NCBI RefSeq assembly: GCF_030408635.1
Contig: NZ_CP047198.1
Span: forward strand, 2,418,001 to 2,482,000
From: Corynebacterium coyleae
Lineage (GTDB): Bacteria; Actinomycetota; Actinomycetes; Mycobacteriales; Mycobacteriaceae
Length of the DNA stretch: 64,000 nucleotides
Direction of reading: 5' to 3'
The position numbers and the translations under genes are program-made. Of the stretch, positions 33,145-54,845 are shown piece by piece. A model generated the notes under the pieces. It made no database searches. It saw only the letters and a list, made by a program, of their open reading frames with translations, and was not told where the DNA came from. Position 1 is the first letter of the stretch. Each line of letters opens with the position of its first letter.

Positions 33145-33157
33145 CGTTCACCTCCCA

Positions 33158-33806: not shown

Positions 33807-33873
33807 GGGCACCTTCCGGGACAGCGGCGAAGACGGACAGCACCGAGTGTAGGGGGCGGATGCGAGGGGTCAG

Positions 33874-34194: not shown

Positions 34195-34246
34195 TGCTAC
34201 TCCTCGTGACGCTGACCCGTAATCATCTCGTCCCGCGCAGCTACGT

Positions 34247-35011
34247 CTAGTAGACCTTGTTGGTTCCGCCATCCACCATGAGTGTTTGGCCGGTGATGTA
34301 GCGGGCGTCGCGGCTAAGCAAGAATGCGACGACCGGGGCGACGTCTGTCTCTGGGTCGCCGAAACGACCGAGCGGGATGCGCTGCAGAGACTGCTGGTAG
34401 AGCTCCGGGAATGCCTCGGACCACTTCTGCACGCCCTCGGTTAGCGCCATCGGACCGACGACGTTGACGCGAATGTCGTCCTTCGCCCACTCGTTGGCTA
34501 CCACGCGTGAAAGGCCACGAATCGCTTCCTTAGCTGCCGCGTACGCCGCCTGGGTGGGCTGGCCGACAATGCCGGCGCCGGAGGCAAAGTTCACGATCGC
34601 GCCACCGTTGTCTTTAAGGTGCGGGTAGGCAGCAAGCATGAAGTTCTTGGTGGCCTCGAAGCCGGTGCCGAAGGACAGGTCCCAGTCCTCCTGCTGCAGA
34701 TCGGTGAATGGCTTTTGTCGCGACGCGTGTGCGTTGTTGACCACGCCGGTGAGCTTGCCAAACTTCTCCACCGCAAGTTTTACGGCCTTCTTCGCGGTCT
34801 CCGGTTTGCTCACGTCGCCGTTGAGGAAGACAACGTTGTCCCCGAGGTCGTTCTCGAGGGCGGCGCCGGCGTCGTCGTTAATGTCTACGGCCACTACCTT
34901 CGCTCCACGTGCGACGAGAGTGCGCGAGATTGCCCCGCCGATACCTGCCGCGCCGCCGGTGACCACGGCAACCTGATCCTGCAACTGCGTGTTCATATCT
35001 TGAGTGCTCAT
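34247..35011 (-). CDS. SDR family oxidoreductase
   Basis: A 254-aa classical short-chain dehydrogenase. Cofactor motif TGGAAGIGGAISRTL (TGxxxGIG), structural motif NNAH (usually NNAG), catalytic Ser in NFASGAG and YxxxK in YAAAKEAIRG; C-terminal GQTLMVDGGTNKVY. An Asp after the second beta strand (VVAVDIND) suggests NAD(H) preference. Similar to 3-oxoacyl-ACP reductase and glucose dehydrogenase relatives; substrate unknown. ATG 35011. Confidence 0.92.
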   Translation of the reverse strand: MSTQDMNTQLQDQVAVVTGGAAGIGGAISRTLVARGAKVVAVDINDDAGAALENDLGDNVVFLNGDVSKPETAKKAVKLAVEKFGKLTGVVNNAHASRQKPFTDLQQEDWDLSFGTGFEATKNFMLAAYPHLKDNGGAIVNFASGAGIVGQPTQAAYAAAKEAIRGLSRVVANEWAKDDIRVNVVGPMALTEGVQKWSEAFPELYQQSLQRIPLGRFGDPETDVAPVVAFLLSRDARYITGQTLMVDGGTNKVY

Positions 35012-35041
35012 GAACCCGAGTGTAGGGGCGGATTGGCGAGG

Positions 35042-35293
35042 TTACCCGTGCCTCCACGCAAGAAATGTGTCTTGCAGATTGAGCCACAGCTCTGCCGAGG
35101 TACCACGTGCTGCTCCGACCAGCTCAGCGGATTCCCGCGTAAGCTCCCGCTCGCCCGAGATGATCTCTTTAACAAAGCGCGTCGGCCGTCCCATGATCGC
35201 GGCGAAATCTGCTTCGCTCCAACCACGTTCTTCTAATTCCTCCGCGAGGAAATCTCCCACTGGGAACGATTCTGCCAAAGGTTGAGTAACCAT
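35042..35293 (-). CDS. HigA-family antitoxin, orphan copy
   Basis: An 83-aa paralogue of the HigA at 32896, conserved over the full length (AEELEERGWSEADFAAIMGR; RGTSAELWLNLQDTFL). No higB-like gene lies upstream; the next minus-strand gene is an unrelated hypothetical. ATG 35293 has GGAGGTGA upstream. An inverted repeat GTCAGTGG/CCACTGAC (35328-35335 and 35347-35354) lies in front and could be its operator. It may control, or protect against, the toxin of the intact pair. Confidence 0.85.
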   Translation of the reverse strand: MVTQPLAESFPVGDFLAEELEERGWSEADFAAIMGRPTRFVKEIISGERELTRESAELVGAARGTSAELWLNLQDTFLAWRHG

Positions 35294-35327
35294 TGTTCAC
35301 CTCCGTCAGTGAACCATCGGAGGACCG

Positions 35328-35354
35328 TCAGTGGACCTCCAGTGGCCACTGACG
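35328..35354. promoter_or_regulatory. Inverted repeat upstream of orphan higA
   Basis: GTCAGTGG (35328-35335) and CCACTGAC (35347-35354), with extra GTCAGTG/CAGTGG words on either side. It lies 35 bp upstream of the orphan HigA start. Autoregulatory operators at this position are usual for antitoxin genes. Confidence 0.45.
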
Positions 35355-35363
35355 ATACCGCCG

Positions 35364-35996
35364 CTACGCGGGCCACATCCCCCAACTGCTGAACCGGTGC
35401 CGGTCTACCGCCTCCTCCACGGCATACACCATGTCCCGAAGGGCACCGTACCCCGCGAGCTTCGCCTCCAGGTCCACGATCAATTGCAGGCCATCGACCC
35501 ACATCTCCATAACCACGCGCGGTTCCGCCGTCCCCGGCGCGAACAGCGGCAGCGGGAAGTACGCTGAGCCGGAGTCTTTACCGATTTCACTGCCATCCAC
35601 CTCGCTGCATTTGTAGTTCAGGCCCATCTCTGCCAGGCCGTCACCAGCCAATTCAGCGCTAGGTTCTGGGAACTCAACCTCTCGGATTTCCACCCGCATC
35701 GCGCGATCCGCCTCGTCCGCATAGGAGAGAGGTTGCGGCAACACGCGTGAGATGGTGTCGCAAATCGGCCCCATCATGTCCAGACGTCCGGCGTCGGCGC
35801 ATTCCCGCGCGGAGATCGCGAGCCCGTATACGCCAGCAAACCGCAGTTCGTGCGCGAGTGCCTCCCCGCTGATCTCCACCATCAACCTGGCCGCCGATTC
35901 CTCAGACCGCCCCAGTGCCTGACGGAGGTCGTTCTTTTCAGCCGCTAACTTGGCTGCCTCGAGAATGTCCGAGAAGAGATTGATGGAGGTGCTCAT
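35364..35996 (-). CDS. Hypothetical protein, 210 aa
   Basis: Starts MSTSINLFSDILEAAKLAAE at ATG 35996; an ATG at 36041 in frame is an alternative. The N-terminal half is helical and Ala-rich; the C-terminal half holds VEIREVEFPEPSAELAGDGL and an aromatic end (WGMWPA). No signal peptide or membrane segment. Family not recognised. Confidence 0.65.
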   Translation of the reverse strand: MSTSINLFSDILEAAKLAAEKNDLRQALGRSEESAARLMVEISGEALAHELRFAGVYGLAISARECADAGRLDMMGPICDTISRVLPQPLSYADEADRAMRVEIREVEFPEPSAELAGDGLAEMGLNYKCSEVDGSEIGKDSGSAYFPLPLFAPGTAEPRVVMEMWVDGLQLIVDLEAKLAGYGALRDMVYAVEEAVDRHRFSSWGMWPA

Positions 35997-36075
35997 GCCG
36001 AAGATACCATTAAGCGTCAACGCTTCAGGCAATAGCTCCATGCCCGGCAGTTTCAAAACTTGGCGGCCTCAAACA

Positions 36076-36117
36076 GTTGGTGCGTACCTACTTGTCCGCA
36101 ATGTGGAGTCCGCAAGG
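36076..36117. repeat. Dispersed palindromic repeat, copy 3
   Basis: AGTTGGTGCGTACCTACTTG then TCCGCAATGTGGAGTCCGCA; one base of the palindrome differs (TGTGGA). It ends 9 bp from the 3' end of HipB-like copy 2. Confidence 0.7.
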
Positions 36118-36125
36118 GGCGACGC

Positions 36126-36350
36126 TCAAAATCGCCCCAGCTCGTCAGCTCTATGCACGACGGGTTCAAGGTCGTACCCGAGCACGGCAAGAACGTCGAT
36201 CACCTTGCCAATCTCGGCCGTCGGCTTACCGTGCTCCAGCTCCCGAAGGAACCGGTCCGACACGTCGGCAAGCTCGGCGACCTCCAGTTGGGTCAGCCTC
36301 CGCTCCTTACGCTGGGCGCGCACAAAGCTGCCGAGTGCCTCTATGTCCAC
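36126..36350 (-). CDS. HipB-like XRE antitoxin/regulator (copy 2)
   Basis: A 74-aa protein almost identical to copy 1 (31662-31877), with the same LTQLEVAELADVSDRFLREL helix-turn-helix. GTG 36350 with GAGGAGA upstream. The promoter regions of both copies share GGAGCGTTCGCACCGAA-type sequence (36388-36404 here, 31914-31930 at copy 1), probably part of a common operator. No HipA partner. Confidence 0.85.
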   Translation of the reverse strand: MDIEALGSFVRAQRKERRLTQLEVAELADVSDRFLRELEHGKPTAEIGKVIDVLAVLGYDLEPVVHRADELGRF

Positions 36351-36573
36351 GTGTCACGTCTCCTCGCTGACCGTATGCTGTTACGGAACGTTCGCACCGA
36401 ATCTGTTCCTATAGGCCGTCAGGTTAGCGCAAAACAGCGCATTTCGGTGTGTTCGCTCCGACTTGGAGGCAAGCGCCCTCAATTTCAGATCGGCACGTTC
36501 GTTTCGCCGAGGGCAAGCTCGCAGGGTGGCCTCGGCCGCATACACGCAGCGATCTGCCTATCTACGCACCGGC

Positions 36574-37666: not shown

Positions 37667-39324
37667 TTAGGACAAATCCCACTCCCGCGCCAGAGTCCCC
37701 ACCAGATATTTCTGACGGTCGGCGATAACTTCAGGTGTCCACACGGGTTCCTTCAGCACTTGCGTGGTGAGGGCGAATACCGCCACTCCCTGATCAGAGG
37801 TGAAGTATTTGTCCTTCTTCACGGCGAAGTCGTAGTTTTGTGCTCGAGAATTGGAACGGCGGTTAAGCAGCAGCAAGTTGCCTAGGCGGTGCGTCCACTG
37901 CTCCGCGTCCTCCTCGGAGAAGTCCTCGCGCCCATTGACTCTCCTGCGGAGGGGTCTGGGGGAGTACATGCTCGACAGTGATGATGCGGTGGTCGTATGA
38001 CGCGCCTGGGTCCTGGGCGAGAACCGAATCGAGTCGCAGCAAAACATACTTGCGCACGCGGGTTGCCAGGTAAAGCTCACCGTCGATGCGGTCGAGCGTC
38101 TCTCTTCGCTCGGCATCGGAGAGCTCGAATGCGTCCGCTTGGAGGCCGTCACCCTCGACGAGCTGTTTCAGCAGCTCCATGTAGCGCTGCTGGCGTGGAG
38201 TGGCATAGACTCGCCGCAGCAGCATACTTGCCGCCAATCGTTCGAGTTTGGACATGAATTGCACCAGGAATTCGACGTCTTCCCCGTGTTCTTTGAGTGC
38301 CCACAAGGCTGGCGGGCGCCAGTCGTCGTTATCAAGCTGGTCCAGCCGTTTCAGCCAGTTGTTCAATTCCTCCCAACGTGGATCATCACCGTGAAAATCC
38401 TGGGCAAGCATTCGGATGTCTGCCTTCGCGTACGGCTCGAGCACCTCGCGGATGAAGCCTTTCCCATTGTCGGGCAAGTATGCATTGAGCACCTGGTCGG
38501 GAAACTCCTGTAACAAACCCTTCACAGCACGAGTACGAGACTTTATCGCGCGGATGTACAAGAACAGGTCGCCGAACTGCTTGCGCCCGAGTTCCTCCTC
38601 GAGGTTCTCCCACACCTCAGCGTGCTGTTGTTTTTCATATTCCGCGATTGAGCCAATCACCTGGGATTTGAAGATGTCCTGAGGAGACAACGGAAGCCCT
38701 CGCGCATTCATCACTGAGAAGATCCGGTACGCGCTATTCAGGTCCGGGGTGGACACCGTCACCAGGTATGCGCGAGCGGCAATGAGCTTGAACAGCTGGG
38801 TCAACTGTTCCTGGTCCCACTCGACAAGTGCCTCGTGTAAAGCCTTTGCGTTGTTGCGGATTCTCTTCTGAGAATCGGTCCCTACAGCGTTGTCGCTGAG
38901 CCCGATAAGCGCCTGGGTTGCACCGGGCGTTTGCACATAGGTGCGGAAGAAATGTGTGTCACGCGGTCGGATGTTCAAACGTGGCTTGGCAGGCACGTTG
39001 TCCCATTCCAACGCCTCGCTCTCGATGAGTTTGTGGATCGACTGCTGCAAGCTTTCTTTGTCCACGAGATCCCGCAATAACGCCAGAAGGATCGTCAACG
39101 TAGTCAGTCGTTGCTGACCGTCGATGACCTCAGAGCGCGGACTGCCAGGGGCTTTGACTAACACGATCGATCCGAGGAAATACGGCTCATCTGTGTCACG
39201 CTCCAACGCACCGGACAGATCGGACAACAGTTGGAGGGCTTCCTCGGCTCCCCATGCGTACGGGCGCTGGTACTCCGGAATCTCGAATTCGTAATCGCCG
39301 GTCAAGTCCCGTGTAGTGGTGTAG
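37667..39324 (-). pseudogene. DUF262/DUF1524 nuclease-type protein, disrupted
   Basis: The N-terminal DUF262 (ParB/Srx-like) part is intact from DYEFEIPEYQRPYAWG through SEVIDGQQRLTTLTILLALL. The C-terminal DUF1524 HNH part starts TVEHVLPQTPP, then a frameshift near 37925-37945 moves the rest (REDFSEEDAEQW, HRLGNLLLLNRRSN) into another frame. The 5' end abuts an IS256-family element and lacks a proper start. DUF262-DUF1524 proteins include GmrSD-type modification-dependent nucleases, so this is probably a dead defence gene. Confidence 0.85.
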
Positions 39325-40589
39325 CCGTTTGTGCTTTCGGCTCGGTATGAAGTTCGGGGTTTGGATTATGCGGTTAGCTGGTGGTGGTCGTCATGGTCAC
39401 CTCCAGTTTGGTGCATGAGGTGTTTGGTGTGTTCGAGTGCGGATAGTGACATGTAGCGTTTTTGTTGGATCCAATCGTCGTGCTGTTCGGCAAGCACCGC
39501 GCCAACAGGCCGGATGACCGAGTCGCGGTTCGGGAAGATACTCACGACATCGGTGCGCCGGCGGATCTCCCAGTTTTACCGCTCGGCGGGGTTCTTCGAC
39601 CACACCTTCCTCCAGATACGCCGGAACTTCCAGTAAATCAACTACTTCGCGGGCTTGTCGCCAGGTGGATTGGGCGTCGGGTTGTTGGAAGATTGTCTGG
39701 AACATCGCAGAGACCATCGGCCACTGTGTCTTGGGGACTTTTTCGTAGAGGTTCTTCGCGAAATGAGTCCGGCACCGCTGCCAGGATGCATCGGGCAGCA
39801 CTTCAGATATCGCGTGCTGGATGCCCTCATGAGCGTCACTGGTGATAAGGAAGACACCGCGAAGTCCGCGGGCTTTTAAGTCTTGGAAGAAGCCTTTCCA
39901 CGATGCGTTGGATTCCGCGGTGGCAACATGCATACCGAGCATTTCGCGGTACCCGTCGGCGTTGACCCCAGTGGCAAGCAGTACGGAGCATTTGACTACC
40001 CGGCCACCTTCACGGACTTTGATCGTGAGTGCGTCGCACGACAGGTAGGCATACCCGCCGGGGTCGAGTGGGCGGTTTTTGAAATCTGCGACCATCTCGT
40101 CGAGTTCTTCCGACATGCGTAAGCCTTGCGATTTCGACATGTTGGAAATGCCAAGGGTTGCCACCAGATCGTTCATTCGGCGGGTGGAGACTCCTTTGAG
40201 ATAGCACGTCGCGATCACGGTCGATAGTGCGCGTTCCGCTCGTGAGCGGCGCTCGAGCAGCCAGTCCGGAAAGAACGCGCCGTGGCGCAGCTTTGGTACC
40301 GCCACGTCGATCGTGCCGACACGGGTGTCGAGGTCGCGGTGGCGGTACCCGTTGCGTTGGTTGACCCGCTCGGTGGAAGCAACACCGTACTCAGCGCCGC
40401 ACACGGTGTCGGCCTGGGCGGAGAGGATCTGGTTGATAAACCCTTGCAGCATCTGGCGCATCAGATCCGGCGACGCTTGGGCCAGCAAATCATCCAGATA
40501 GGTTGTCGGGTCGATAGAATGCGGTGCAGCGGTCATCGTCATGTGCCTTTCGGTGAGATGTGGTAGTTGAGTCGAAAGGTTACTGACGG
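39325..40589 (-). mobile_element. IS256-family insertion element, degenerate
   Basis: It contains a broken transposase gene. Imperfect terminal inverted repeats are suggested by CCGTTTGTGCTTTCGGCTC near 39325 and the reverse complement of the sequence ending near 40589 (CCGTCAGTAACCTTTCGACT). I see no matching target-site duplication, so the limits are approximate. It cuts into the DUF262 gene on the left and abuts a truncated IS1249-like gene on the right. Confidence 0.7.
39397..40542 (-). pseudogene. IS256-family transposase, frameshifted
   Basis: The first 300 residues are typical: RNGYRHRDLDTRVGTIDVAV, the first Asp in YLSCDALTIKVREGG and the second in FLITSDAHEGIQ. After VVDLLEV an apparent deletion and frameshift destroys the frame. 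The correct continuation (RRIWRKVWSKNPAER, then [19 protein letters not shown], ending [20 protein letters not shown]) survives in another frame with an in-frame TAA after NPAER. The segment carrying the catalytic Glu is therefore not translated. Confidence 0.85.
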
Positions 40590-42481: not shown

Positions 42482-43627
42482 TTACACGGCTCCATCTCGG
42501 GATGGCCGATCCCACAACGGAGCTAACTGTGGCAGTGAGAGCGCCCAGTCCAGGGATACACGCTCCTGTTCGAGCCGTTTGTTCCCTGATGCGATCAAGA
42601 ACCGCCGTGCACGTTCCTCCTCCTCGGTGAGGCGGGGGAGCACGCGTGCAGTATCCCCTGGGTCAGCGACTGCGAGGTGGAGGAACCTCTGCACGGTGTC
42701 AATGTCCATCGCTGCGCTGACTACCGAAACGGAGCACCCGTCGGCAGACAAACGGGTACGCACAGTGTTCAGGATGGCGTAGCCGTCCGCGTCCGCATCG
42801 CCCCAGTACACAATCTGCCGCGCTTGACGGACCCACGGCAGCTCGTGGAGCGCGCCGGCGGTGTACCCCGCACCCCAAACCAGCACCACGTTTGAGCCTT
42901 CGGGCGTGTGCGGCAGTGCGAGGAACGTCTCCTTGTTCTCGACGACGAGCACCCTAAGGTCATCCGGGAGCGCAAGCGAGCCAAAGGGAACGGACACATC
43001 GACAAGCCCTGGCGCCGGTGCCAACGAAAAATCCAAGAACCGTACCCTCATCATGCGGTCGCCCTCGGCGAGCCCGAGGTCGTTCACCCCAAGGAGCCGT
43101 TGCAGCAATCTCCGGTGCGTGGCGATCCACTTCGTGTCCAGACCTTCGATAGGCACCGCACGCGGACGCAGGCCGGATTGTGGTTTCACGTGAAACCAAT
43201 GCAATGCGAGGCAAAGTCGGTTGAAATCTTCCGCTGAAAGCGCAATCCACGCTGAATTGGTGCGAGCAGCACGCTCCCGGAACTCCGAACTGTCGGGAAA
43301 CAGCTGAATCAGACGCGCAAACCTTTCGCGAGCCAGGGCAACTTCCCCAGCACGCCCGACCACCTCTGCTACGCGATCCCATCCGGACAACATCAGTCGC
43401 ACCGGCACGTCGTGTTTGCCCAAGCCCGCCCAGGAACGCGTAGCCCACTCCACCTCACCTGCGGGTTCCCATGCTTGCCAGGTGCGGACGAATTCGCGGG
43501 CGCGGGTTTCGTCGTCAAGCACCTGCGCACGAGTCGGGGGTTTCAGAGGAATGGACACCTCGACGGGTTCGTCGAGGAGCAACTGCTCCATATTGAGCTT
43601 GAGAGGTAACTGGTCAGGCAGGCGCAT
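42482..43627 (-). CDS. jetD: Wadjet protein JetD (Toprim nuclease subunit)
   Basis: A 381-aa DUF3322/DUF2220 protein. The C-terminal Toprim-like domain shows VVENKETFLALPHT (catalytic Glu) and QIVYWGDADADGYAILNTVR (DxD acidic cluster). In characterised Wadjet systems JetD cleaves closed circular DNA that the JetABC motor has extruded. ATG 43627 overlaps the jetC stop by 14 bp. A parS-like site lies inside the coding sequence (43182-43197). Confidence 0.93.
   Translation of the reverse strand: MRLPDQLPLKLNMEQLLLDEPVEVSIPLKPPTRAQVLDDETRAREFVRTWQAWEPAGEVEWATRSWAGLGKHDVPVRLMLSGWDRVAEVVGRAGEVALARERFARLIQLFPDSSEFRERAARTNSAWIALSAEDFNRLCLALHWFHVKPQSGLRPRAVPIEGLDTKWIATHRRLLQRLLGVNDLGLAEGDRMMRVRFLDFSLAPAPGLVDVSVPFGSLALPDDLRVLVVENKETFLALPHTPEGSNVVLVWGAGYTAGALHELPWVRQARQIVYWGDADADGYAILNTVRTRLSADGCSVSVVSAAMDIDTVQRFLHLAVADPGDTARVLPRLTEEEERARRFLIASGNKRLEQERVSLDWALSLPQLAPLWDRPSRDGAV
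43182..43197. promoter_or_regulatory. parS-like ParB site 2 (inside jetD)
   Basis: GGTTTCACGTGAAACC, a perfect palindrome with the two outermost bases differing from consensus. In the jetD frame it encodes FHVK. Confidence 0.75.
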
Positions 43628-46600
43628 AGGTTTCAATGAGCTCGAAGGTGGAACGTGCGACGGGATCCTCGGTGTAGTGGACCACGATGGTGCCGTCGAC
43701 GTACGGGGAGAGGGTCTTGATCAGCTTCATCGGCGTAGCCAGCACCATATGGAAGCCAAAGCTTTCAAACACGTCCATCGCAGTGCGGGTGAACACAGGG
43801 TCTGCGCGGTCAAAGGCCTCATCCAGCACCACGGTGGCGTAGCGGGGCACGTCCGCATCCACCCCCGCAAGGCGATAACGCAACGCCGCGGCGAGGCAGA
43901 AAAACACCAGCTTCTGCGCCTGGCCGCCGGACAACGACGCGGAATCCACGTGGGTGTTGTGCACCGTGCCCTCGGCGTCCACCTCGTTGCCCACGAACTT
44001 CACATGCCTGCGGGTGTCCAGCACGACGTTGCGCCAACTGCGGTCGGCACGCTCGGAGGAGCCGAGGCGATCCATGATCTTGGCCAGGCGGTGGTAGCGC
44101 TCGATGGCGGTCTTCTCGTCCGCCTCGCTCAAGCTGCCGGCGGTCGCTTCGCGCAGGTCCTGCAGGAAGTCACGCACGACGCGGTCTCGGTTGTCACGGA
44201 CTTCAATCTGCAGGTAGCGCCCCTCGGTGTACGGGGAGCGGCGCAGCGACGCGTTGATGGGGCCCAGGTTGGTCTCAATGTCGCCCTTCGCGCGCTGCAG
44301 CTCCTTGTAAATCGTGTTCAGGTGCATCACGGACTGGCCGTTGAGCAGGTCCAGGAAGCGGCCGCGGAACTCCGGCAGGCGGTCCGAGCGCAGCATCTCC
44401 AACCTCGCAATAGCCTCGCCCGCAAACTCGGCCGCGGCCTGCAGCTCCGCAGACTCTGCGGACCACCGGGACTTGTAGTTGGACAGAATGTTCACGATGG
44501 CGTTGCTGGATTCCGTGATCGTCTTCGCCGCCTGCTTCGCCTGCGCGTCCAGCTGCGCGGTGACCTTGAAGGCGCTGTCGCTTAAGTTCTCCGGGGTCAG
44601 ACGGCGCGTGGTGGCCGCGAGCATCGCATCCAGCTGCTCCGCCAGCGCCGGGTCCACCTCCACGTGCTCCGACTCGATCCGCTTCAGCCGCGCCTGATCG
44701 TCCTGCAGTGCCCGCGTGGCCACGGCGAGCTCGTCGTGCACGCTGCGCAACTCCTGCTCGGTGGCCTTCAACGTATCGACGGCCTCGCGCCACGCCCGCT
44801 CCAACTCCTTCGCTTCAGGCGAGGAGGTCAGCCGTTCAAGCTCGGCGCGCAGGCTCGCCAACTGCTCCTCGACGCTGATGACGTCCACGCTGGCCCACTC
44901 CATAGCGTCGATAGCCCGAGCCTTCTCCACGTCGCTGGCCAGCGCCTTTTGCTTACGCTCAACCTCTGTTAGGCGGTTGCCCGCCGCCGTTGTCGCGCGT
45001 TTCGCCTCCGCCAGCTCCGCGCGCAGCGCCTCCACCTTGGCATGGTTGGAGGAGCCGAGGCGGTAGTTGCGCCGTTCGCCCAGGCGCTGCCTGTCGTTTT
45101 TCACGTACCGGGCGGAGCCAGTCCTATCGGCCGGGTTGCGCTCCAAGCCGTCGATGGTAGCCGCGCGCTTGTCTTGCCGTTCCAGCTCGTCCACGGTGCG
45201 CACTAAGGCGTAGTCGAAGGTGGTGGCCAGCATGCGCATCAGCCAGGGGCGCATCGGGTGCTCCACCACGCGCACCTTATGAAACAGGCTGAGCGGGTTC
45301 TTCGGTCCGCGCGGCATGTCCACGCCCTCGGGCACGGTGCGGTACTCAAGCCGCATCCCCAAGTGGCGGCCATTGACCCAGCTGCTCACCTCGCGCTCGC
45401 GCTCCGCTGGCACCAAAAGAGTCGCGGCAAAACCGCCGAGCAGGCGCTGGATCACCGGTTCCCACTCGGCTTGCTCCGGTAGCACGTCGATGAGCTCACC
45501 CACGTACGGCAGCTCACGCACCGTCAGCCCGGTATCCGCACACAGCTGTGCGCGCTTCTCCACGTACCGCCGGTCAAGGTTGGAGGTGCGGTTGCCTAAC
45601 GACGCCAACTCCGTCTCCACCGACGTCTCCGCGCCGGCAAGCCTCTCGTGCTCGCTTCGGGCCTTGAACCACGCTTCGCGCAGGCGTTCTCCCTGCTCCG
45701 GCGCGGCCGCCAGCTCCGCCGACGCCTGTGCTTTCAGCTCTGCGAAGCGCTCGGTGTCCAACGCCCCGTCTAACTGCACCAGAGCCGCCAGGTCGCGCAC
45801 TTTCGCCTTGCGCGCAACAAGCTCGTGCTCCTCGCGGGCGATGTTGCGCTCGATCTCGCCCAGGCTCTGCCCGGCAACCTGCTCTCTCTGCACCACGGCG
45901 CGCTGCACCGCCTCCTGTTGCGCTTCCTTGCGGGCCTCGAGGGATTGCGCCTGCACTTCGAGGGCGGCGAGTTGGGCGGAGCTGACGTCGATACGCTCGC
46001 GCAGCTGCTTCGCCTCAATCGCACGTCGCACGTTGGGCAGGGCGGCAGACAACGCGGCATTGTTCTCCTGCGTCGCCTGCGCATCCTTGAGCTTGGTGTC
46101 CAGCCCCGGCAGGGGAGCGAGCGTCTCAATCTGCTGGTGCACGTCTTCGAGCCGCTCGTACGCCTGGCGCAGGTCCTCGTGCGTGGCCACGGCGTCCTCC
46201 GCGACCTGGAACGTGTCCGGTACGTCCAGCATGTAGTTGCGGAACAGCTCGTCCATGCTGGACAGGGACTTCGCGGACTGCGTGCGGTGCAGCAGCATCT
46301 GCGCTTCCTCGCTGCCGATACCCAGCTTGGAGCGGAAGCGGTTGGCAAACACGGAGTACTGGTCCGTGAACGTCACGCCGGCAGTTTTGTATTTCGCCTC
46401 CAACTTGCGCTTATCCAGGGAGTTCTGCAGCAACGGCACGAACCCGTCCACGTCCACCTCGCTGGGAAAAATGCCGTAGAGCGTTTTCACCTGCGCTTCC
46501 TGCTGCTGTCCCGCATTGAGGCGGTAGATTGCGGCGAGCGTGAACGCCTCCTTCCCGGCGCGGTAGGTCAGCGCGACAATGCTGGCTGTCGCTCCGGAGC

Positions 46601-46901
46601 GCAGGTACTGGCTGCGGATCTCGCCGGTGGCCGGGTCCTCGCTGCGGCGCCACGCACCGCGGATATAGGACACGCGGCTGCGCCCCTTGTCACGGCCGGT
46701 TTCCTGCTGGGCGGCGGCGTTGAACCGCAGCTTGCCAGGCGGGACTAGTACGGCGGAGAAGGCGTCGATAAGCGTGGACTTGCCCGAGCCGGACGCGCCG
46801 GTGATCAAAAACCCACGCTCGCCGACGGGGATGTCGTAGTAGCCGTCGAACGTGCCCCAGTTGACCAGCTGCACGCGCGCAAGACGGAACTGCTCTGTCA
46901 C
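43614..46901 (-). CDS. jetC: Wadjet protein JetC (SMC-like ATPase)
   Basis: A 1095-aa SMC/MukB-like ATPase. Walker A is TGASGSGKSTLIDAFSAVL near residue 35. Two long coiled-coil arms (about 250-480 and 610-830) flank a hinge-like middle. The ABC signature LSGGQAQKLVFFCLAAALRY and Walker B YATVVLDEAFDRADP are near the C-terminus. In known systems two JetC dimers drive DNA loop extrusion to sense small circular plasmids. ATG 46901 overlaps the jetB stop (ATGA). Length and motifs are intact. Confidence 0.95.
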   Translation of the reverse strand: MTEQFRLARVQLVNWGTFDGYYDIPVGERGFLITGASGSGKSTLIDAFSAVLVPPGKLRFNAAAQQETGRDKGRSRVSYIRGAWRRSEDPATGEIRSQYLRSGATASIVALTYRAGKEAFTLAAIYRLNAGQQQEAQVKTLYGIFPSEVDVDGFVPLLQNSLDKRKLEAKYKTAGVTFTDQYSVFANRFRSKLGIGSEEAQMLLHRTQSAKSLSSMDELFRNYMLDVPDTFQVAEDAVATHEDLRQAYERLEDVHQQIETLAPLPGLDTKLKDAQATQENNAALSAALPNVRRAIEAKQLRERIDVSSAQLAALEVQAQSLEARKEAQQEAVQRAVVQREQVAGQSLGEIERNIAREEHELVARKAKVRDLAALVQLDGALDTERFAELKAQASAELAAAPEQGERLREAWFKARSEHERLAGAETSVETELASLGNRTSNLDRRYVEKRAQLCADTGLTVRELPYVGELIDVLPEQAEWEPVIQRLLGGFAATLLVPAEREREVSSWVNGRHLGMRLEYRTVPEGVDMPRGPKNPLSLFHKVRVVEHPMRPWLMRMLATTFDYALVRTVDELERQDKRAATIDGLERNPADRTGSARYVKNDRQRLGERRNYRLGSSNHAKVEALRAELAEAKRATTAAGNRLTEVERKQKALASDVEKARAIDAMEWASVDVISVEEQLASLRAELERLTSSPEAKELERAWREAVDTLKATEQELRSVHDELAVATRALQDDQARLKRIESEHVEVDPALAEQLDAMLAATTRRLTPENLSDSAFKVTAQLDAQAKQAAKTITESSNAIVNILSNYKSRWSAESAELQAAAEFAGEAIARLEMLRSDRLPEFRGRFLDLLNGQSVMHLNTIYKELQRAKGDIETNLGPINASLRRSPYTEGRYLQIEVRDNRDRVVRDFLQDLREATAGSLSEADEKTAIERYHRLAKIMDRLGSSERADRSWRNVVLDTRRHVKFVGNEVDAEGTVHNTHVDSASLSGGQAQKLVFFCLAAALRYRLAGVDADVPRYATVVLDEAFDRADPVFTRTAMDVFESFGFHMVLATPMKLIKTLSPYVDGTIVVHYTEDPVARSTFELIETYAPA

Positions 46902-47497
46902 TGTTCTTCCCCTTCCTGTGCCAGGCGCAGATACTCCTCGCGCAGCGCGTGGACCGTGTCAGCGTCGAAGATGTGGCGCAGCACAGGGGAGACCTCCCAG
47001 CGCCCCTCGGTCTCCGTGTCGGTGAGCAGGCTGTACTTGCGGATGGTGTTCACCGCCGCGGTGAAGCGCTTCTTAAACCCGGACTCGTCACGGTTGTCCA
47101 CCGCACGGACGTAGCTGATGGCGCCATACAACTCATCTTCTCCCACCACGACGCGCTCGCCTGGGGTAGACATGCCCAGCTCGTGGCGCAGCTGCAGCAG
47201 GATCGCGGTTTGCAAGTGCGTCAGCGCCTCCGTGCGCAACACCGGCGGCACTTTCACGTCCTCGTTGTCCGGGCGGACGTGGCGAGTGAACGCGATGCCG
47301 GCGTCCTCGTCCACAACCAGCTCCAAAAACACATCGTGCAGCCGAGAGCGCAGCGTCTCCGTGTCGGTGGTGATGGCGTGCCAGGTTTCCTTCTTCCGGT
47401 CGGCGGTGATGAGCGGACCTTTGAGCAGGTCCACCAGTGCGCGCCGGGTTTCCTCGGACAGGATGCCCGTGTCGCCCGTCCACAGCGGTTCCGTCAT
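46898..47497 (-). CDS. jetB: Wadjet protein JetB (DUF4194, kleisin-associated winged helix)
   Basis: A 199-aa DUF4194 protein beginning MTEPLWTGDTGILSEETRRA at ATG 47497. It is the MukE-like partner that joins kleisin JetA to the JetC motor in known systems. Visible features: VFLELVVDEDAGIAFTRHV and ILLQLRHELGMSTPGERVVV. It overlaps jetA and jetC by four bases each, so the stoichiometry is probably set by coupled translation. Confidence 0.92.
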   Translation of the reverse strand: MTEPLWTGDTGILSEETRRALVDLLKGPLITADRKKETWHAITTDTETLRSRLHDVFLELVVDEDAGIAFTRHVRPDNEDVKVPPVLRTEALTHLQTAILLQLRHELGMSTPGERVVVGEDELYGAISYVRAVDNRDESGFKKRFTAAVNTIRKYSLLTDTETEGRWEVSPVLRHIFDADTVHALREEYLRLAQEGEEQ

Positions 47498-48972
47498 TGC
47501 ATCTCCTTTACTGCTGCGGCGTCGAAATGCCACCGCGGGACCGTCGCCAAGCGAATGCTCCCATCGTCTTCCTCGAAGCGCACCTCTTCGCTGCCGTCCT
47601 GCCGCACCCCATGCTTCAGGGCCAGGTACACAAGGCCCACCACCGACCCCAGCCCCTGGGAGGCGGGATGGCGCTCGAGCACCTTGCCTATCGACGCCCC
47701 TCCGGCCATCCCAACCGTCTCCCCAACTGCCGCGATAAGCTCTTCCAAGTCGATCTCGCTTTCACGTACCGCCTGGTAGAGCGCCTCCGCGTCGCCCTCG
47801 CCGGGTTCAAACGCCTCCACCGCAGTGGTGATGACCTCCGCACCCGGGTCCGCCAGCTTGATCTGCGCCACCGAGGTGATCTGCATCCCGATGCGCTGCA
47901 AGGGCGTGTCCATCTTGTGGGTGGCTGCAAGCTCCTCGCGCTCCGCGGCGTCGGCGGCGAGCTTGCGAGTGTCGCGTAAAAGCTCGATCATTCGGCGGTC
48001 CTCGGCAAACTGTTCGCTGGCCACGTAGTTGCGTAGGTTGCGGGCCAGGCGCGTCATCATACGGTTAACCTCATAGCCGGCGTCTTCCATGTCGCGGAAC
48101 AGCCTGCGGAATTTCGCCCGCTCTTCGTGTGTCATCGCGGTGTTGTCGGCGCGCTCGAGCACCTGCCCAATCCACGTGTCCAACCACGCGCCGCGTTCCG
48201 GGTCGACCACCAACGAGTAGAACGCGTTGAAGCTTCTGCCAGCATCGGATTCCCCGATCAAGTCCACGCCGGCGAAGATCTCGTCCAGCACGTCGCCGCG
48301 CGAGCCCTCCGGATCCAGCAGTTGGCGGCGCAGCTGCGTATTGAGCGTTTCCAGCTCGTGCCGCACGCGCGCGAAATCGCCGGGGATCGCATTCGCCTGC
48401 TCCAGAATGTCGCCCACCCGTTCGTGCACGGTGGCGGGGGAGGGCAGCTCGAATTCCCCGCGCTCGACCTGCTCGATCTCTGCCTCGATGCGGGCGCGTT
48501 CGGCGTCGAGGTGCCTCAGGCGGGAGTCGATGTTCGGGTCCGTGTCCCGCGCGAGCGCCTGCAGGGCATTGCTTATCGACGCCACCCGGCTCGCCGTCAC
48601 CGCCGATCGCGGTGCACTGACACGGTCCATCACCTGCAGCGCGGTGAGCGTTTGCTCGCTTGGTTCAAGCGTCTCACCCGTTTCCTTGGTACCGGACTTG
48701 CGCACCAGCCACCCGGCTTTCACCCAGTCGTTGCAGTACGCCTGGGGTTTTTTCGGGAGCTCGAAGATACCGCGCAACACCGCGAAGTCCTCAGCCATGA
48801 GCTGATAGAGCTGCTCCGCAGGTCGGACCTCTGCGCCTCGCGGGAAGTGCTCCGCCACGACCGCGAGTAGCACCGGGGCGTTGTCCGCGTGCAACAAACG
48901 GATCGCGGCCGACTGCTCCTTTTCACGCTTATATGTCAGCGCCCGGGCCTGAATGGTCATGCCGACTATCAT
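47494..48972 (-). CDS. jetA: Wadjet protein JetA (DUF3375, kleisin-like)
   Basis: A 492-aa DUF3375 protein, the MukF/kleisin-like subunit. N-terminal winged-helix region with LLHADNAPVLLAVVAEHFPR and LYQLMAEDFAVLRGIFELPK, a helical middle with IEAEIEQVERGEFELPSPAT, and a C-terminal domain ending in VPRWHFDAAAVKEMQ. I prefer ATG 48972 because GGGAGGGT lies eight bases upstream; ATG 48960 in the same frame has no ribosome site. First gene of jetABCD; the 6C RNA copy 1 and a 15-bp hairpin lie upstream. Confidence 0.93.
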   Translation of the reverse strand: MIVGMTIQARALTYKREKEQSAAIRLLHADNAPVLLAVVAEHFPRGAEVRPAEQLYQLMAEDFAVLRGIFELPKKPQAYCNDWVKAGWLVRKSGTKETGETLEPSEQTLTALQVMDRVSAPRSAVTASRVASISNALQALARDTDPNIDSRLRHLDAERARIEAEIEQVERGEFELPSPATVHERVGDILEQANAIPGDFARVRHELETLNTQLRRQLLDPEGSRGDVLDEIFAGVDLIGESDAGRSFNAFYSLVVDPERGAWLDTWIGQVLERADNTAMTHEERAKFRRLFRDMEDAGYEVNRMMTRLARNLRNYVASEQFAEDRRMIELLRDTRKLAADAAEREELAATHKMDTPLQRIGMQITSVAQIKLADPGAEVITTAVEAFEPGEGDAEALYQAVRESEIDLEELIAAVGETVGMAGGASIGKVLERHPASQGLGSVVGLVYLALKHGVRQDGSEEVRFEEDDGSIRLATVPRWHFDAAAVKEMQ

Positions 48973-49059: not shown

Positions 49060-49165
49060 CCCCTCCGTCCACGGTCCATCCCCCCGAGACCGGTTGAGCA
49101 CTCACCCACCCCCCATTTAGAGTGCGAGTAGGCGGAAGGAATTCCGCTATTCTCAAGCGTTTTTA
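49060..49165 (+). ncRNA. 6C small RNA, copy 1
   Basis: Two hairpins each with six C in the loop, the defining feature of the actinobacterial 6C RNA. Hairpin 1: CGGTC (49072-49076)/GACCG (49088-49092). Hairpin 2: GCACTC (49098-49103)/GAGTGC (49120-49125). A third hairpin GCGGAA-GGAA-TTCCGC (49132-49147) and a downstream T-run (49160-49164) could terminate it. Stem 1 differs from copy 2 by a compensatory C-G to T-A exchange. Ends are estimates. It runs opposite to jetA. Confidence 0.8.
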
Positions 49166-49693: not shown

Positions 49694-50590
49694 ATGCACT
49701 CCATCGATTCCAACGCGTGTGTATTGGCCCTGTCTCCGGACCAAGATCCGCGCCTTCATGTGGAAAGCGGCGACGAGGTTACGGTTCTTACCCTTGACTG
49801 CTTCTCCAACACGATTACCGACGAGTCCCAGTTGTTCAGCACCGTCGGCTGGGACAAGGTCAACCCAGCCACCGGCCCAATCGCGGTCAAGGGAGCACGC
49901 CCTGGCGACACGCTGAAGGTGGAGATCCTCAGCATCGAAGTCGGCGAGCAGGCCACCATGACCACCCACCCTGATTTCGGCGCACTGCCCGGCACGGTGG
50001 AGGAGCGCACCCGCATCGTCCCGATCCGCGATGGCAAGGCGCAGTTTTCTGACGACATCACCATCCCCATCCGCCCAATGATCGGCGTCATCGGCACCGC
50101 ACCGGCATCCGAGTCGGTACCCACCGGTGAGCCGCGCCAGCACGGCGGCAACATGGACACCAAGGAGATCGTTGCCGGTTCCATCCTGTACTTGCCAGTG
50201 GAGGTCGACGGCGCGAACTTGAGCCTTGGCGACGTCCACGCGGTGATGGGCGACGGCGAAGTCGCAGTCTGCGGCGCCGAGATCGAAGCCGAGGTGAAGA
50301 TCCGCGTCACGGTGCTCGAGGGCCGCCCGCTGCCACTGCCGTTCTTGGATTCCGGCGACGCGGTCTACGCCATTTCCTCCGAGGTCGAACTGATGGATGC
50401 CGTCAAGGAATCGACCCGCATGATGCGGGACTGGCTCGTGAGTGCATCTCGCCTCGACGCGACCGACGCTCTCATGCTCCTGTCCCTGACTGGCGACACC
50501 CAGATCAGCCAGATCGTCGACCCCCGCATGACTGCTCGCTTCCGCTTGCCCAAAACGATCCTCAAGCAGTGCGGTGTGGAACTGCCGTAG
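49694..50590 (+). CDS. Acetamidase/formamidase family protein
   Basis: A 298-aa FmdA/AmdA-type amidase starting MHSIDSNACVLALSPDQDPR at ATG 49694 (GAGAGG upstream). Family signatures: NPATGPIAVKGARPGDTLKV, QHGGNMDTKEIVAGSILYLP, SLGDVHAVMGDGEVAVCGAE and the end QIVDPRMTARFRLPKTIL. It hydrolyses short-chain amides to ammonia and the acid. The last 65 bp are repeated at 51630-51694, so the 3' end may have been replaced or duplicated when the downstream islet arrived. Flanked by two 6C RNAs. Confidence 0.92.
   Translation: MHSIDSNACVLALSPDQDPRLHVESGDEVTVLTLDCFSNTITDESQLFSTVGWDKVNPATGPIAVKGARPGDTLKVEILSIEVGEQATMTTHPDFGALPGTVEERTRIVPIRDGKAQFSDDITIPIRPMIGVIGTAPASESVPTGEPRQHGGNMDTKEIVAGSILYLPVEVDGANLSLGDVHAVMGDGEVAVCGAEIEAEVKIRVTVLEGRPLPLPFLDSGDAVYAISSEVELMDAVKESTRMMRDWLVSASRLDATDALMLLSLTGDTQISQIVDPRMTARFRLPKTILKQCGVELP
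50525..50589 (+). repeat. 65-bp direct repeat, copy 1 (amidase 3' end)
   Basis: Codes for RMTARFRLPKTILKQCGVEL P. Matches copy 2 (51630-51694) at about 60 of 65 positions; the differences are synonymous except Thr to Ala. Confidence 0.9.
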
Positions 50591-50602
50591 CTAACGGGCA
50601 AT

Positions 50603-51334
50603 TCACCATTGCGCATCTGCTTTAGGCGTAGTGAACCCCTCCGGGGGAGTGACGGTAAACCCGAGGTCCCTGAGCGCCTCTGCAGCAGCTTCGGGATGAT
50701 CTCGGGTTGCCGCAGAAGCCTGTTTAGAAAGCCATACTCGGCGTCGTTCCTGTAGTGCAGGTTCCCATCCTGGCCTCCCGCGGAATCCACATTCGCTGAT
50801 CACAAAATAGAGGAAGTCCTCAAGCGACGGACGAAAACGCTTTCCTCCCACAGGTAAGTGCAATTCATCTAGGCGGCCCTTCTTCCTCGGGTTGCCTGAT
50901 TTGTCCTGAAAGTTCTGCATTAACGCTGGACTGAGCAACCCTGCGACCCCTGAGTAGTGGATATGCGCACAGGGCGCGCTGGTGTAGTCACGCTCAAACT
51001 CGAAACGTATGCCCGGCGACGTAGCAACCCGCAGTTCGAATTTGCTGCTCTTTACGGCTAGGAACTTCTCCGACGAATCGGATGACAGTTCGTAATTGAT
51101 AATCACGTGAAAGAGTTGACTGTAGTCTTCCCTGCGCACTGAGCCCTCAGGTTGTCCAGCACCGTGAACGAGAGGAGCCTTGAAATCACCCACCACGATA
51201 TTCTTGTCGATGTTTAGCTTGGCTTTCGCCTGTAAATCCGCTCTGCATGCCAGCGGCAACGCCTCAAGTAACGTGTCTCTTACGTCGCCGAGAAACCGCC
51301 CTGCCGCATCATGCACTCCCAAAACGACCCTCAC
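50603..51334 (-). CDS. Hypothetical protein of islet (large subunit of pair)
   Basis: A protein of about 243 aa from GTG 51334, which lies inside the end of the upstream small gene (26-bp overlap). Predicted mixed alpha/beta. Notable stretches: CAHIHYSGVAGLLSPALMQN, KKGRLDELHLPVGGKRFRPS and FLYFVISECGFRGRPGWEPA. No nuclease or helicase motif is obvious. The coupled small partner and the position inside a 3'-end duplication suggest a mobile two-gene module, possibly defensive. Family not recognised. Confidence 0.6.
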   Translation of the reverse strand: MRVVLGVHDAAGRFLGDVRDTLLEALPLACRADLQAKAKLNIDKNIVVGDFKAPLVHGAGQPEGSVRREDYSQLFHVIINYELSSDSSEKFLAVKSSKFELRVATSPGIRFEFERDYTSAPCAHIHYSGVAGLLSPALMQNFQDKSGNPRKKGRLDELHLPVGGKRFRPSLEDFLYFVISECGFRGRPGWEPALQERRRVWLSKQASAATRDHPEAAAEALRDLGFTVTPPEGFTTPKADAQW

Positions 51335-51530
51335 CGAGCAGTAAGAGAACTGTCTGCAGCTCGTCGTACACGGTCCGCTCATCCTCGCTCAACATGCCGG
51401 CATTCGCCAGCACCTTGAGGTCTTGAAATTCAGCATGGGGAAGGCGAGTGGTGGCCCTTAGAGATGCCAAACACTCTCGCTTCCTTTCAAGAAGCTCTTC
51501 ACTATTGGTGACAGTGATTTCCAATGGCAA
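51309..51530 (-). CDS. Hypothetical small protein of islet, 73 aa
   Basis: Starts at TTG 51530 with GGAGG eight bases upstream. An all-helical acidic protein: ITVTNSEELLERKRECLASL, then LPHAEFQDLKVLANAG and DELQTVLLLLGEG. It overlaps the downstream gene by 26 bp, so the two are translationally coupled. It could be an antitoxin or regulatory subunit of the larger protein; no homology recognised. Confidence 0.6.
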   Translation of the reverse strand: MPLEITVTNSEELLERKRECLASLRATTRLPHAEFQDLKVLANAGMLSEDERTVYDELQTVLLLLGEGRFGSA

Positions 51531-51629
51531 CTTTCTCGCCTCCGTCTGCTTCTTTCGTAACCAGCAGTTTTATTAACCGACAGTTTAATAGGTGCCGAGA
51601 ATCTTCAGCACAAAATTAGCACACCTGTT

Positions 51630-51694
51630 CGCATGGCCGCTCGCTTCCGCCTGCCCAAAACGATCCTCAAGCAGTGTGGCGTGGAACTGCCGTA
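51630..51694 (+). repeat. 65-bp direct repeat, copy 2 (detached amidase 3' end)
   Basis: An in-frame copy of the amidase C-terminus including the stop codon, with no coding sequence in front of it. With copy 1 it brackets the two-gene islet. Confidence 0.9.
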
Positions 51695-51799
51695 ACCGCA
51701 CCTCACAACCGCAAAACCACGCTATCTACCTGCATGTTTAGCAGTATTTTGCACTAAGACTAGACAAGCCATTTACACATGATCTATATTTGAGCCGGA

Positions 51800-51966
51800 G
51801 CCCCGCCCACGGTTACACCCCCCCGAGAACCGGCTGAGCACTCACCCACCCCCCCATTTAGAGTGCGAGAGGCGCGGGCTCCCTTTGGGGGACATAGTCC
51901 CCACCCAGGGCCTTCGGGTCCTTTGCAGCGGCCCATGCCCCCCATTGGCCGCTGCATAAATTTTTA
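51800..51966 (+). ncRNA. 6C small RNA, copy 2
   Basis: Hairpin 1 CGGTT (51810-51814)/AACCG (51828-51832) and hairpin 2 GCACTC (51838-51843)/GAGTGC (51861-51866), each with a run of seven C in the loop. A third hairpin GCAGCGGCC (51925-51933)/GGCCGCTGC (51947-51955) also has a C-rich loop and is followed by ATAAATTTTT, a good terminator. A TATATT box at 51785-51790 may be the -10. In other actinobacteria 6C RNA is a conserved trans-acting small RNA. Ends are estimates. Confidence 0.85.
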
Positions 51967-51973
51967 AACTCCA

Positions 51974-53221
51974 CTAATCCGCCGAGACCGGCACGGTCAA
52001 CCAGGCGGAAGCAGCAACGACGACTGCTTCGGTGCCACGGTCGAGTGTGGGCTGGAGATCAGGTGCGAACGCCGGGTTGTGGTTGCCCACAGCCTTGCTC
52101 ATGTCCGCGAAGCCTCCCAGGCCCCAGTAGGTGTAGGGGACACCGAGCGCGTCGGGGATGATGGAGAAGTCCTCGGAGGCGGGTACGGCGTCGAGGTCGC
52201 AGGATTCGTCGCCAAAGTATGCGTCGAAGGCTTCGCGGACGGTGTCGGTAGCGTCCCCGTCGTTGTCGGTAAGCGGGTAGCGGTCGTAGTAGGTGAACTC
52301 GGGTTCCATCGGGCTGCGGGCGGCGACGCATTCGGCGCGCACGATGCGCTCGATGGCTTCCTTGAGGTGCTCGCTGACCTCGCTGCTGTATGCGCGGGTG
52401 TTGATGAGCAGTTCGGCGGAGTCCGTGATGATGTTGGACTTCGTGCCCGCGTGGATCGCACCGACGGTCACCACCGCGGTTTCCTTGGCCGCCACTTCGC
52501 GCGAGACGATGGTTTGCAGGCGCATCACGATGGTGGAGGCAAGCACCACCGGGTCCACGCCCAATTCCGGCATCGACCCGTGGGAGCCTTTGCCATGCAC
52601 CGTGACCTTCACCGAGAATGCGGAGGACAGCACCGGTCCGCGTCGCGTGCCCACGTGCCCGCCGGGCAGGCTGGCCAGCACGTGTTGGCCCAGGTACACA
52701 TCGGGCCGCGGCATTGCCTGTTCCAACCCGGCCTCGAGCATCGCGCGGGCACCTTCAGCAGTCTCCTCAGCGGGCTGGAAGACGCCGATAAATGTGCCGG
52801 ACCATTGGTCCTTGTGCTCGTTGAACGCCTGCAACGCGGTGAGCAGCGACATGAGGTGAACATCGTGGCCGCACGCATGGGCGACGGGAACCTCCACGCC
52901 GGTCTTGGCGTCAACCTGCGTGGCCGTGGAGGCATAGTCCTTGCCAGAGGCTTCCTTGACCGGCAGCGCATCAATGTCTGCGCGCATGGCCACGACTGGG
53001 CCCTCGCCATTATCGACGACCGCCACCACCCCTGTTTCCCCCACACGGGTCACCCGGATACCTGAGGATTCCAGTTCCTTAACGATCCGCTCCGCGGTCG
53101 CATGCTCCTGCATGGACAGCTCGGGGTGTTGGTGGAAGTGCTTGTACAGCGCTTCGCGTTCGGTTTGGGTTGACGCGAGGCCACCCAAAATCTTCTTGAC
53201 CTTGCCAATCTCGACAGACAT
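51974..53221 (-). CDS. M20-family amidohydrolase
   Basis: A 415-aa metallopeptidase-like amidohydrolase of the N-acyl-amino-acid hydrolase / IAA-amino-acid hydrolase group. Motifs: HFHQHPELSMQEHATAERIV, VVAMRADIDALPV, HACGHDVHLMSLLTALQAFN (metal ligands), FQPAEETAEGARAMLEAGLE (catalytic Glu) and a lid domain with VHGKGSHGSMPELGVDPVV. ATG 53221. Cytoplasmic; releases amino acids from N-acyl conjugates. Specific substrate unknown. Confidence 0.92.
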   Translation of the reverse strand: MSVEIGKVKKILGGLASTQTEREALYKHFHQHPELSMQEHATAERIVKELESSGIRVTRVGETGVVAVVDNGEGPVVAMRADIDALPVKEASGKDYASTATQVDAKTGVEVPVAHACGHDVHLMSLLTALQAFNEHKDQWSGTFIGVFQPAEETAEGARAMLEAGLEQAMPRPDVYLGQHVLASLPGGHVGTRRGPVLSSAFSVKVTVHGKGSHGSMPELGVDPVVLASTIVMRLQTIVSREVAAKETAVVTVGAIHAGTKSNIITDSAELLINTRAYSSEVSEHLKEAIERIVRAECVAARSPMEPEFTYYDRYPLTDNDGDATDTVREAFDAYFGDESCDLDAVPASEDFSIIPDALGVPYTYWGLGGFADMSKAVGNHNPAFAPDLQPTLDRGTEAVVVAASAWLTVPVSAD

Positions 53222-53393: not shown

Positions 53394-54845
53394 TTAGAAT
53401 GACGAACTGCCACCACCAGCGGAAAAGCCTGACGAGGACACGCCGCCACTAAAGCCACTCGAGGAGGACGACGCCGCCTTTGCCGCCTGCACGTTCGCCG
53501 CGTGCCACGAGTGCATCTGCACGTATGGGACGTACCCGCCGTACCAGAACCCAGTCTCGTACACCGCCGGTGCCCGCAGCTTTTGCTTCTCCTTCACGTC
53601 GCTGAACTGCTTCTTCTTCACCTGGTCCAGGATCACGCGGTAATCGCCGAGCACGCGCACGAAGTCGTCGAGGAAGGTGGGGGAGTTCGGGTTTGCGTCC
53701 AGCGCCTCGATCCGCCCCATCAGCAGATCCAGTTCCCGCTTCAGCTCCTTGCCCTTCACCTCACTGCGCGCCCGCAGCACGTCCTCGCGGATCTTGGTCA
53801 GGTCGGCCCGTCGCGCCGCGGCGTCGCCATGCTCGACGGCGAAAAGCCTGTCGATGTTTTCCTCCGCCTTAGACACGTGCTTGACGGATTCGGCCGCGTC
53901 CGCCAACTGCCTGCGGTGCTCGTACACGTCCTTGTCGTCGTTCATGTTGATCGCGTTCAGCCCCGCCGCGCCGTGGACCAACTCGTTCATGCTCAGGAAG
54001 CGGTCGCGGACTTCCGCCCACTGGCGGCGCAGGGTTTCGTCGGCAAACGCGGACGTCAGCGAGTTCGCCCGCACGTCCACCTCGTCCAGCCGTCCTGCCA
54101 GGCGGGTGTATTCGCTGGTCACGGTGTCGTAGTCCTTGCGCGCCTGGGCGACTGCTTTTCGACGACGCCCCCGCACCGCCAACAACCCACCCCCACTAGC
54201 GCCTGCCACACCGGCACCGAGGACGCCAAGCCCGATGGTCGCGCCGATCTGATCATCAGTCGCGTCGTCCACCTGCTTCTGGGCGAGTGCCTCGGCGTTC
54301 ATGGCCTGGTTCGCGGTACGGAACAGCCCGGCCGGGATGTTGCCGTCCTTCACGCCGGGTTTCATGGCGTCGAGGAGATCGGCGAGGTGGGATTTGTCGT
54401 CAAGCATGAGCTCGCGAGTCACATCCTCGCCGCCGTACACAAACGCCTGGCGTGGGTCGAGGCCAACGCCGACGATGAGCGCGCCGTCCGCAAGGTGGCC
54501 GTTCTCGCGCTTCGACTGATCGACGAGGTCCGGGTACTGGGTGCGCAGGAGTTCCTCAACGTCGTCGAGGACGTTCTTGTGGTTCGTTTTGAACACCATG
54601 TAGTGGAAATCCGTGACCACCTCAGGCGCATCAATGCGTGCAGTGTCACGCTCGAGACGGGCGCGGTCGTCGGGGGAGAGGACCTGCTGCGGGTCGTCGA
54701 TAATCGCATTCGGCGCGCCATGCGTTTACATCGTGACCTGCGAAATCTCCGGCACATCCACCATGTTGTAGCCGACGGCGGCGCCACCGAAACCCACCAA
54801 CGCCGTGATGCCAAGAACCGCTGCAGTCTCACTCAAATTCGCCAT
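53394..54845 (-). pseudogene. DUF5129-type envelope protein gene with internal stop
   Basis: From ATG 54845 the frame encodes a membrane helix (AVLGITALVGFGGAAVGYNM) and then a TAA at 54726-54728 (codon 40). The same frame continues without further stops through a TPM-like domain (VVTDFHYMVFKTNHKNVLDD), a second membrane helix (GATIGLGVLGAGVAGASGGG), a long coiled coil and a Ser/Gly-rich tail (SSSSSGFSGGVSSSGFS). The intact part could be translated from GTG 54620 but would lack the N-terminal helix. Either a recent nonsense mutation or a sequencing error. Confidence 0.8.

Follow-up and report, generated by a model that had tools for sequence, protein, structure and literature searches.

A two-gene islet between two copies of an amidase gene end in Corynebacterium coyleae, a possible recombinase-less unit moved behind gene 3' ends

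We start from the elements that are known to settle in the ends of genes. The icd phages and the tRNA islands, which replace the 3' end of the gene that they target, leave a restored gene together with a displaced 3' end, as the islet described here appears to do; unlike the islet, they carry their own integrase and are far larger. Closer to our case are the CIMEs, which are described (PMC5704250) as elements without integration and transfer genes that have retained attL and attR. The islet resembles them in having its cargo between attL-/attR-like repeats of a gene 3' end, in lacking a recombinase and in the possibility of tandem accretion, and it differs in that its unit is only about 1.1-1.5 kb, the same gene pair is found at unrelated target genes, and no parent ICE or IME was identified. 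The MME of Neisseria (PMC3082526) is likewise a whole-gene cassette without a mobility gene, whose spread is presumed to occur via recombination in the flanking genes. It is, however, defined by a pair of conserved flanking genes between which cassettes can be exchanged, whereas the islet duplicates a gene end and the same cassette is found at different places.

The window, by which we mean the whole stretch of 64,000 nucleotides that was analysed, contains an intact gene of the acetamidase/formamidase family (49694 to 50590, plus strand, 298 aa; Pfam FmdA_AmdA, E 1.3e-34). Its 3' end (50525-50589) is repeated at 51630-51694 with no gene in front, in an ungapped alignment with 60 of 65 positions identical; together with the last base of the stop codon, TAG in the first copy and TAA in the second, the copies span 50525 to 50590 and 51630 to 51695, both on the plus strand. 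The preliminary description had reported just such an amidase end recurring without its gene, with a gene pair in between, and this is confirmed. The next-best match to the 65-bp end in the 64-kb window reaches 34/65, and in the whole genome (one contig, 2.51 Mb) the end is present at two places only. When the two copies are compared codon by codon (22 codons, stop included), five differ: four are synonymous, TAG/TAA being counted among them, and the sole non-synonymous one is ACT/GCC (Thr/Ala). The differences are nearly all synonymous, as had been claimed, and the pattern fits the further claim that both copies were under coding selection, for which the basis is these five codons only.

The space between the copies has room for two genes only and contains no integration or transfer gene, as in a CIME. 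Both genes are on the minus strand. The first (51309 to 51530, 73 aa, TTG start, P0002 family, with relatives found by phmmer) is followed, with an overlap of 26 bp, by the second (50603 to 51334, about 243 aa), a member of an unnamed family, P0001, whose start is supported by its homologues; a longer ORF of 259 aa, extending to 51382, begins upstream of that start. The 99 bp upstream of the first gene (51531 to 51629, minus strand) are presumed from the sequence to be the promoter region. The GC content of the islet is 0.533 vs 0.621 for the window.

Relatives of the amidase with 65-87% identity exist in five of 241 other genomes of the genus, and three more are found at 36-37%. Within the 14-15 kb fetched per genome, none of the five has a second tail beside the amidase and none has the islet there, although one (G146) has a distant P0001 relative elsewhere in its genome. 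The comparison is one between species, with one genome for each. Beyond the amidase, the surroundings of the five relatives and the window have nothing in common except matches of 34 and 41 bp. A search for the second tail in 242 genomes of the genus returned only amidase ends and three short weak matches, and an exact degenerate pattern of the amidase tail found none in IMG/VR. The amidase relatives were also used to ask which of the two 65-bp copies resembles genomes without the islet. The result is a tie: both tails match the closest relative equally (55/65, G237), neither being nearer to it at the five differing bases, and do so again against G211 (52/65), so that neither stands out as the native copy.

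A larger block, at about 49.2-53.3 kb, encloses the islet; it consists of the amidase, the islet and an M20 peptidase gene (51974-53221). At this larger scale the amidase and the islet are bracketed by two C-rich repeats, A (49065 to 49134, conserved, as is its flank, in G101 and G173) and B (51803 to 51875, a second copy). Five other Corynebacterium genomes (G101, G173, G276, G016 and G148) were compared at the corresponding place, and the block is missing from all of them. These keep one copy of the C-rich repeat at the matching place, then the region corresponding to window 53394-54620, with no amidase or M20 gene; in G016 there is one other gene between the two. Since the repeat is followed by the counterpart of 53394-54620 in the five genomes, amidase, islet and M20 gene are read as a joint insertion in a variable spot.

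The C-rich repeat, about 72 bp long, is predicted to form two hairpins with C-rich loops within an outer stem. Among seven sequences, 5 of the 20 predicted pairs have a double-sided change, and the covariation term is near zero. The repeats resemble the 6C RNA and were suspected to be copies of it; the Rfam search of 43-60 kb gave nothing at the gathering score, and copy B gave nothing credible at E<=1. Repeat A adjoins a complete Wadjet set (jetD, jetC, jetB, jetA; 42485-48972, minus strand; PADLOC type I models), which lies upstream of the islet block; among the five genomes just named, Wadjet genes are in the fetched stretch of G276 only. Several other features of the neighbourhood are recorded here in their own right. 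A 14-bp palindrome, GTTTCACGTGAAAC, which we take to be the parS core, has four exact copies (43183, 49486, 57409 and 59269), one of them upstream of the amidase. A cluster at 31662-36444 holds a HigB-like gene and a Fic-family gene, and diverged repeats at 31672, 32756, 33686, 35067 and 36145 are small antitoxin-like genes by their look. The gene at 37863-39305 has PADLOC matches to Orf5 (E 4.7e-116), HEC-06 and SspE, and adjoins an ORF at 39397-40542 that looks like a transposase.

We turn to the places where the same gene pair sits in other genomes. Its closest relatives, at 68-69% protein identity, are in five Corynebacterium genomes beside the ends of type IIG restriction genes. In G234 the pair lies directly between the end of such a gene (PADLOC REase_MTase_IIG) and a second copy of 387 bp that is 90% identical; of the 34 codons that are changed in this copy, 19 differ non-synonymously, including one that has become a stop. 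In G038, G173 and G276 the pair is flanked by a piece of the IIG end of 29-37 bp and, on its opposite side, by a copy of 317-384 bp, and different cargo lies beyond; G276 shows the ends only, with no whole IIG gene within its fetched stretch. In G101 a single IIG-end piece of 51 bp was found, on one side of the pair. Between other copies of the IIG end there are OLD-like, CHAT, Hypoth_Ymh and DO-GTPase genes, and the cargo at this locus varies between species. Nine of the cargo proteins were scanned, and six have a PADLOC or Pfam match (defence-like or domain-bearing only), while the others have little or none. As a separate observation, rows of accessory, partly defence-like genes together with copies of the IIG 3' end make this locus a hot spot in five Corynebacterium genomes (L075, L131, L133, L134 and L136).

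The anatomy recurs outside the genus. In Isoptericola halotolerans (L175) the pair has an intact tRNA-Gly(ccc) on one side and, on the other, an identical 42-bp copy of the 3' half of this tRNA. The tRNA-Gly 3' end is single in the fetched stretches of Isoptericola sp. BMS4, Xylanimicrobium and Luteimicrobium, where both sides align and 0.5-6.6 kb of other DNA follow the tRNA. The same pair is present in BMS4, with 86% DNA identity over 982 bp, at a distance of about 20 kb, and of the repeats inspected around it none forms a bracket of more than 11 bp; from its different place it follows that the unit has moved. In a MAG contig (L208) the pair is behind a gene for a PLP-dependent decarboxylase (Pfam Orn_Arg_deC_N), which we read as lysA. 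The last 33 bp of this gene, stop included, are repeated with two synonymous base changes, and the repeat ends exactly at the stop; over 12 codons, three are synonymous changes and none is non-synonymous. Other repeats are of a different kind: in Brevibacterium ravenspurgense (L159) a 32-bp repeat starts 9 bp after the stop codon, and at L255, behind a sigma-70 gene, and at L223 the repeats are GC-rich hairpins that may be terminators. Direct repeats of the end of the target gene are thus present on both sides in the window, G234, L175 and L208, as in a CIME if they are att sites, with copy-to-copy spacings of 1105, 1522, 1286 and 1162 bp, respectively. The orientation of the pair relative to the host gene differs among the cases.

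How often the pair is bracketed was counted in fixed windows with a cut at score 20 that was set after the first brackets had been seen. A first scan of 50 loci showed a bracket at L033, L034, L051 (17 bp) and L111; of these, L111 and L034 are sister loci at the same site. An earlier look at 62 of 80 listed loci found four (L144, L159, L175 and L215, the last bracketed by far-off large repeats only) vs 2/124 shifted controls, and an earlier count of 130 loci with a P0001 match left 113 usable after removal of duplicates and short flanks. The final set of 144 loci (115 plus 29, the window among them, after exclusion of duplicates and of loci whose flanks were short) has tight brackets at eight vs 5/493 shifted controls (Fisher p 0.0026), so that 136 loci, including three of the five Corynebacterium IIG-end loci, have none. 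The count falls to 6/142 (p 0.019) when the window and L034, the sister locus, are omitted, and to 4/142 (p 0.12) when the two GC-hairpin repeats are omitted as well; among the 29 loci fetched later, only the two hairpin-like repeats passed the bracket test. Because the p value rises in this way when loci are left out, and because the cut was chosen afterwards, the excess of brackets relative to the controls is modest and in part post hoc. A stronger argument comes from what the repeats are: at four independent places (amidase, IIG, decarboxylase and tRNA-Gly) they consist of the last part of the gene next to them. For the bracketless majority, the internal stop in the IIG copy suggests that the second end may have decayed; otherwise the pair may have been brought by other routes.

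The preliminary description had read the islet as an element that enters a gene 3' end and supplies a replacement end. This reading gains from the brackets at the tRNA-Gly, decarboxylase and IIG genes and from the single tail in the amidase relatives, and the many loci without a tight bracket count against it. The version that we prefer, and to which we give an even chance, is that the islet is a recurrently moved unit of 1.1-1.5 kb, without a recombinase, brought in behind the host gene by an enzyme acting in trans. The unit would consist of the operon of two genes, some 100 bp in front of it and between a dozen and a few dozen bp behind it, and would be placed just behind the last codon of the host gene. 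Its insertion would keep that gene whole, and beyond the unit there would be a second, slightly different copy of the 3' end. The enzyme, an integrase of the phage or island type encoded elsewhere, would act on a short core in the gene 3' end, and a circular form would presumably be joined to the gene end. If the direction is as we infer, the unit brought along the end that the amidase now has, and the original end is the one displaced to 51630-51694.

An integrase in trans is favoured because the short copies stop at the stop codon or the tRNA end, because a tRNA is one of the targets, and because the units are of similar size. Besides the loci without a tight bracket, this reading has against it the bracketless pair of BMS4, the many non-synonymous changes in the IIG copy, the scarcity of amidase tails apart from amidase genes and the differing orientation of the pair to its host gene. 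The window itself has no integrase of its own such as a tRNA-type genomic island would carry, in agreement with the preliminary description: the matches of the genome to PF00589 (five) and PF00239 (three) are all outside the window. The PF00589 matches in the genomes of L175 (G669), G234 and G038 are on other contigs or at least 90 kb from the islets. The preliminary description had also offered an unlinked enzyme as one alternative; action of a site-specific enzyme gained no backing here, in that neither a donor att nor an enzyme was identified.

A real rival, though a less likely one, is that an incoming related gene end with the islet recombined in the resident gene end, by homologous or homology-assisted recombination, and that both ends were left. 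Such an insertion-duplication needs no special enzyme, and none was found; it lets different cargo stack behind one gene, and it accommodates copy lengths that vary widely. The IIG locus speaks for it, since the pair lies there among extra 3' end copies of 29-387 bp in four Corynebacterium genomes and, with ends only, in G276, and since the rows of OLD-like, CHAT, Hypoth_Ymh and DO-GTPase cargo are between such copies. Copies of 33, 42 and 65 bp are, however, short for RecA-type exchange, and none of these runs into the flank: in L208 and the window the stop codon is the limit, and in L175 the copy goes no further than 3 bp past the tRNA.

It is quite unlikely that the islet is instead the leftover of a larger island or prophage, that is, a decayed CIME, in which an integrase-bearing element entered the gene end and all but its two end genes were deleted. 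CIMEs are indeed described (PMC5704250) as having lost their integration and transfer genes while attL and attR were kept, and relatives of the second islet gene are found in 12 viral contigs and near one end of two prophage records of equal length (at 58.2 of 60.7 kb). Random decay should leave varied remnants, though, and what is kept in the window, G234, L175 and L208 is a similar unit of 1.1-1.5 kb, the second gene preceded by a small one (taken as such in L175 and L208 from its position and appearance); the ORF lists contain no phage or island gene between the copies. That a tandem amidase paralogue downstream was reduced to its last 65 bp when the islet arrived would agree with the mainly synonymous differences, but it is highly improbable, as no second tail exists within 14-15 kb in the five amidase relatives and the other host genes would be left unexplained.

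The gene pair itself is widespread. Relatives of P0001 are present in 62 of 242 genomes of the genus (E<=1e-6) and in 25 genomes of a class-wide sample of 394 (1e-8), the genome of the window being included in both counts, and a scan of the GTDB collection gave 137 relatives, of which 80 are listed. A phmmer scan of 50 loci (E<0.01) picked up the small upstream partner in 25. The genome of the window has a second P0001 copy, 57% identical, at C1:42525-43235, likewise behind a small gene, and a search for a bracket around it found none. Weak relatives of the islet genes occur in five plasmid records and two phage records, in which no vehicle is evident.

Neither protein has a family at E<=1 in Pfam or NCBIfam or at E<=5 in PADLOC. 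PHROGs gave each protein one match without an assigned function (E 0.15-0.2; P0001, E 0.2), and the best hits of sequence searches against the PDB, at E 0.38 and 0.02, were not convincing. For P0001, AlphaFold2 produced a good model (pLDDT 86.4), for which Foldseek returned nothing in the PDB at E<=0.001. P0001 was also considered as a recombinase and this was dropped: there is no tyrosine among its invariant residues, and no serine-recombinase pattern was seen. Two of 34 P0001 relatives weakly match the DUF2290 profile (best E 0.0016 in PADLOC, 0.0069 in Pfam). In P4-like satellites, a helicase with DUF2290 makes up a defence system (PMC9122126). Beyond the weak profile similarity of those two family members the islet is unlike that system, in that P0001 itself matches no Pfam family at E<=1, DUF2290 included, there is no helicase between the copies, and the partner is instead a small protein of 73 aa. 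Our guess that the pair has a defence-type role comes from the neighbouring genes; it is suggested because the pair sits among defence-like genes and beside Wadjet, and by the two relatives with DUF2290 similarity.

In its anatomy the islet works like a CIME, and the integrase-less CIMEs are its closest described counterparts; we treat it as a variant and do not file it as a member, because no parent island was found. Among the titles and abstracts that our literature search returned, none describes the P0002-P0001 pair or such cassettes, which is not proof of their absence in print. We would go further only tentatively, and hold it rather unlikely, that there is a class of minimal integrative cassettes, each with one or two accessory and often defence-like genes and no recombinase, that travel in circular form from one gene 3' end to another by means of enzymes in trans, each bringing a replacement end and stacking like integron cassettes, with the P0002-P0001 pair as a widespread Actinobacterial cargo. 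Numerous accessory and defence genes are found isolated in a genome, with nothing visible that could have carried them there. If small cassettes without an integrase do land at gene 3' ends, this would be one concrete answer to how such genes move, and it would come with a signature that can be searched for, a duplicated gene end with synonymous changes. An unnamed and widespread Actinobacterial gene pair thereby joins the candidates for defence or stability genes.
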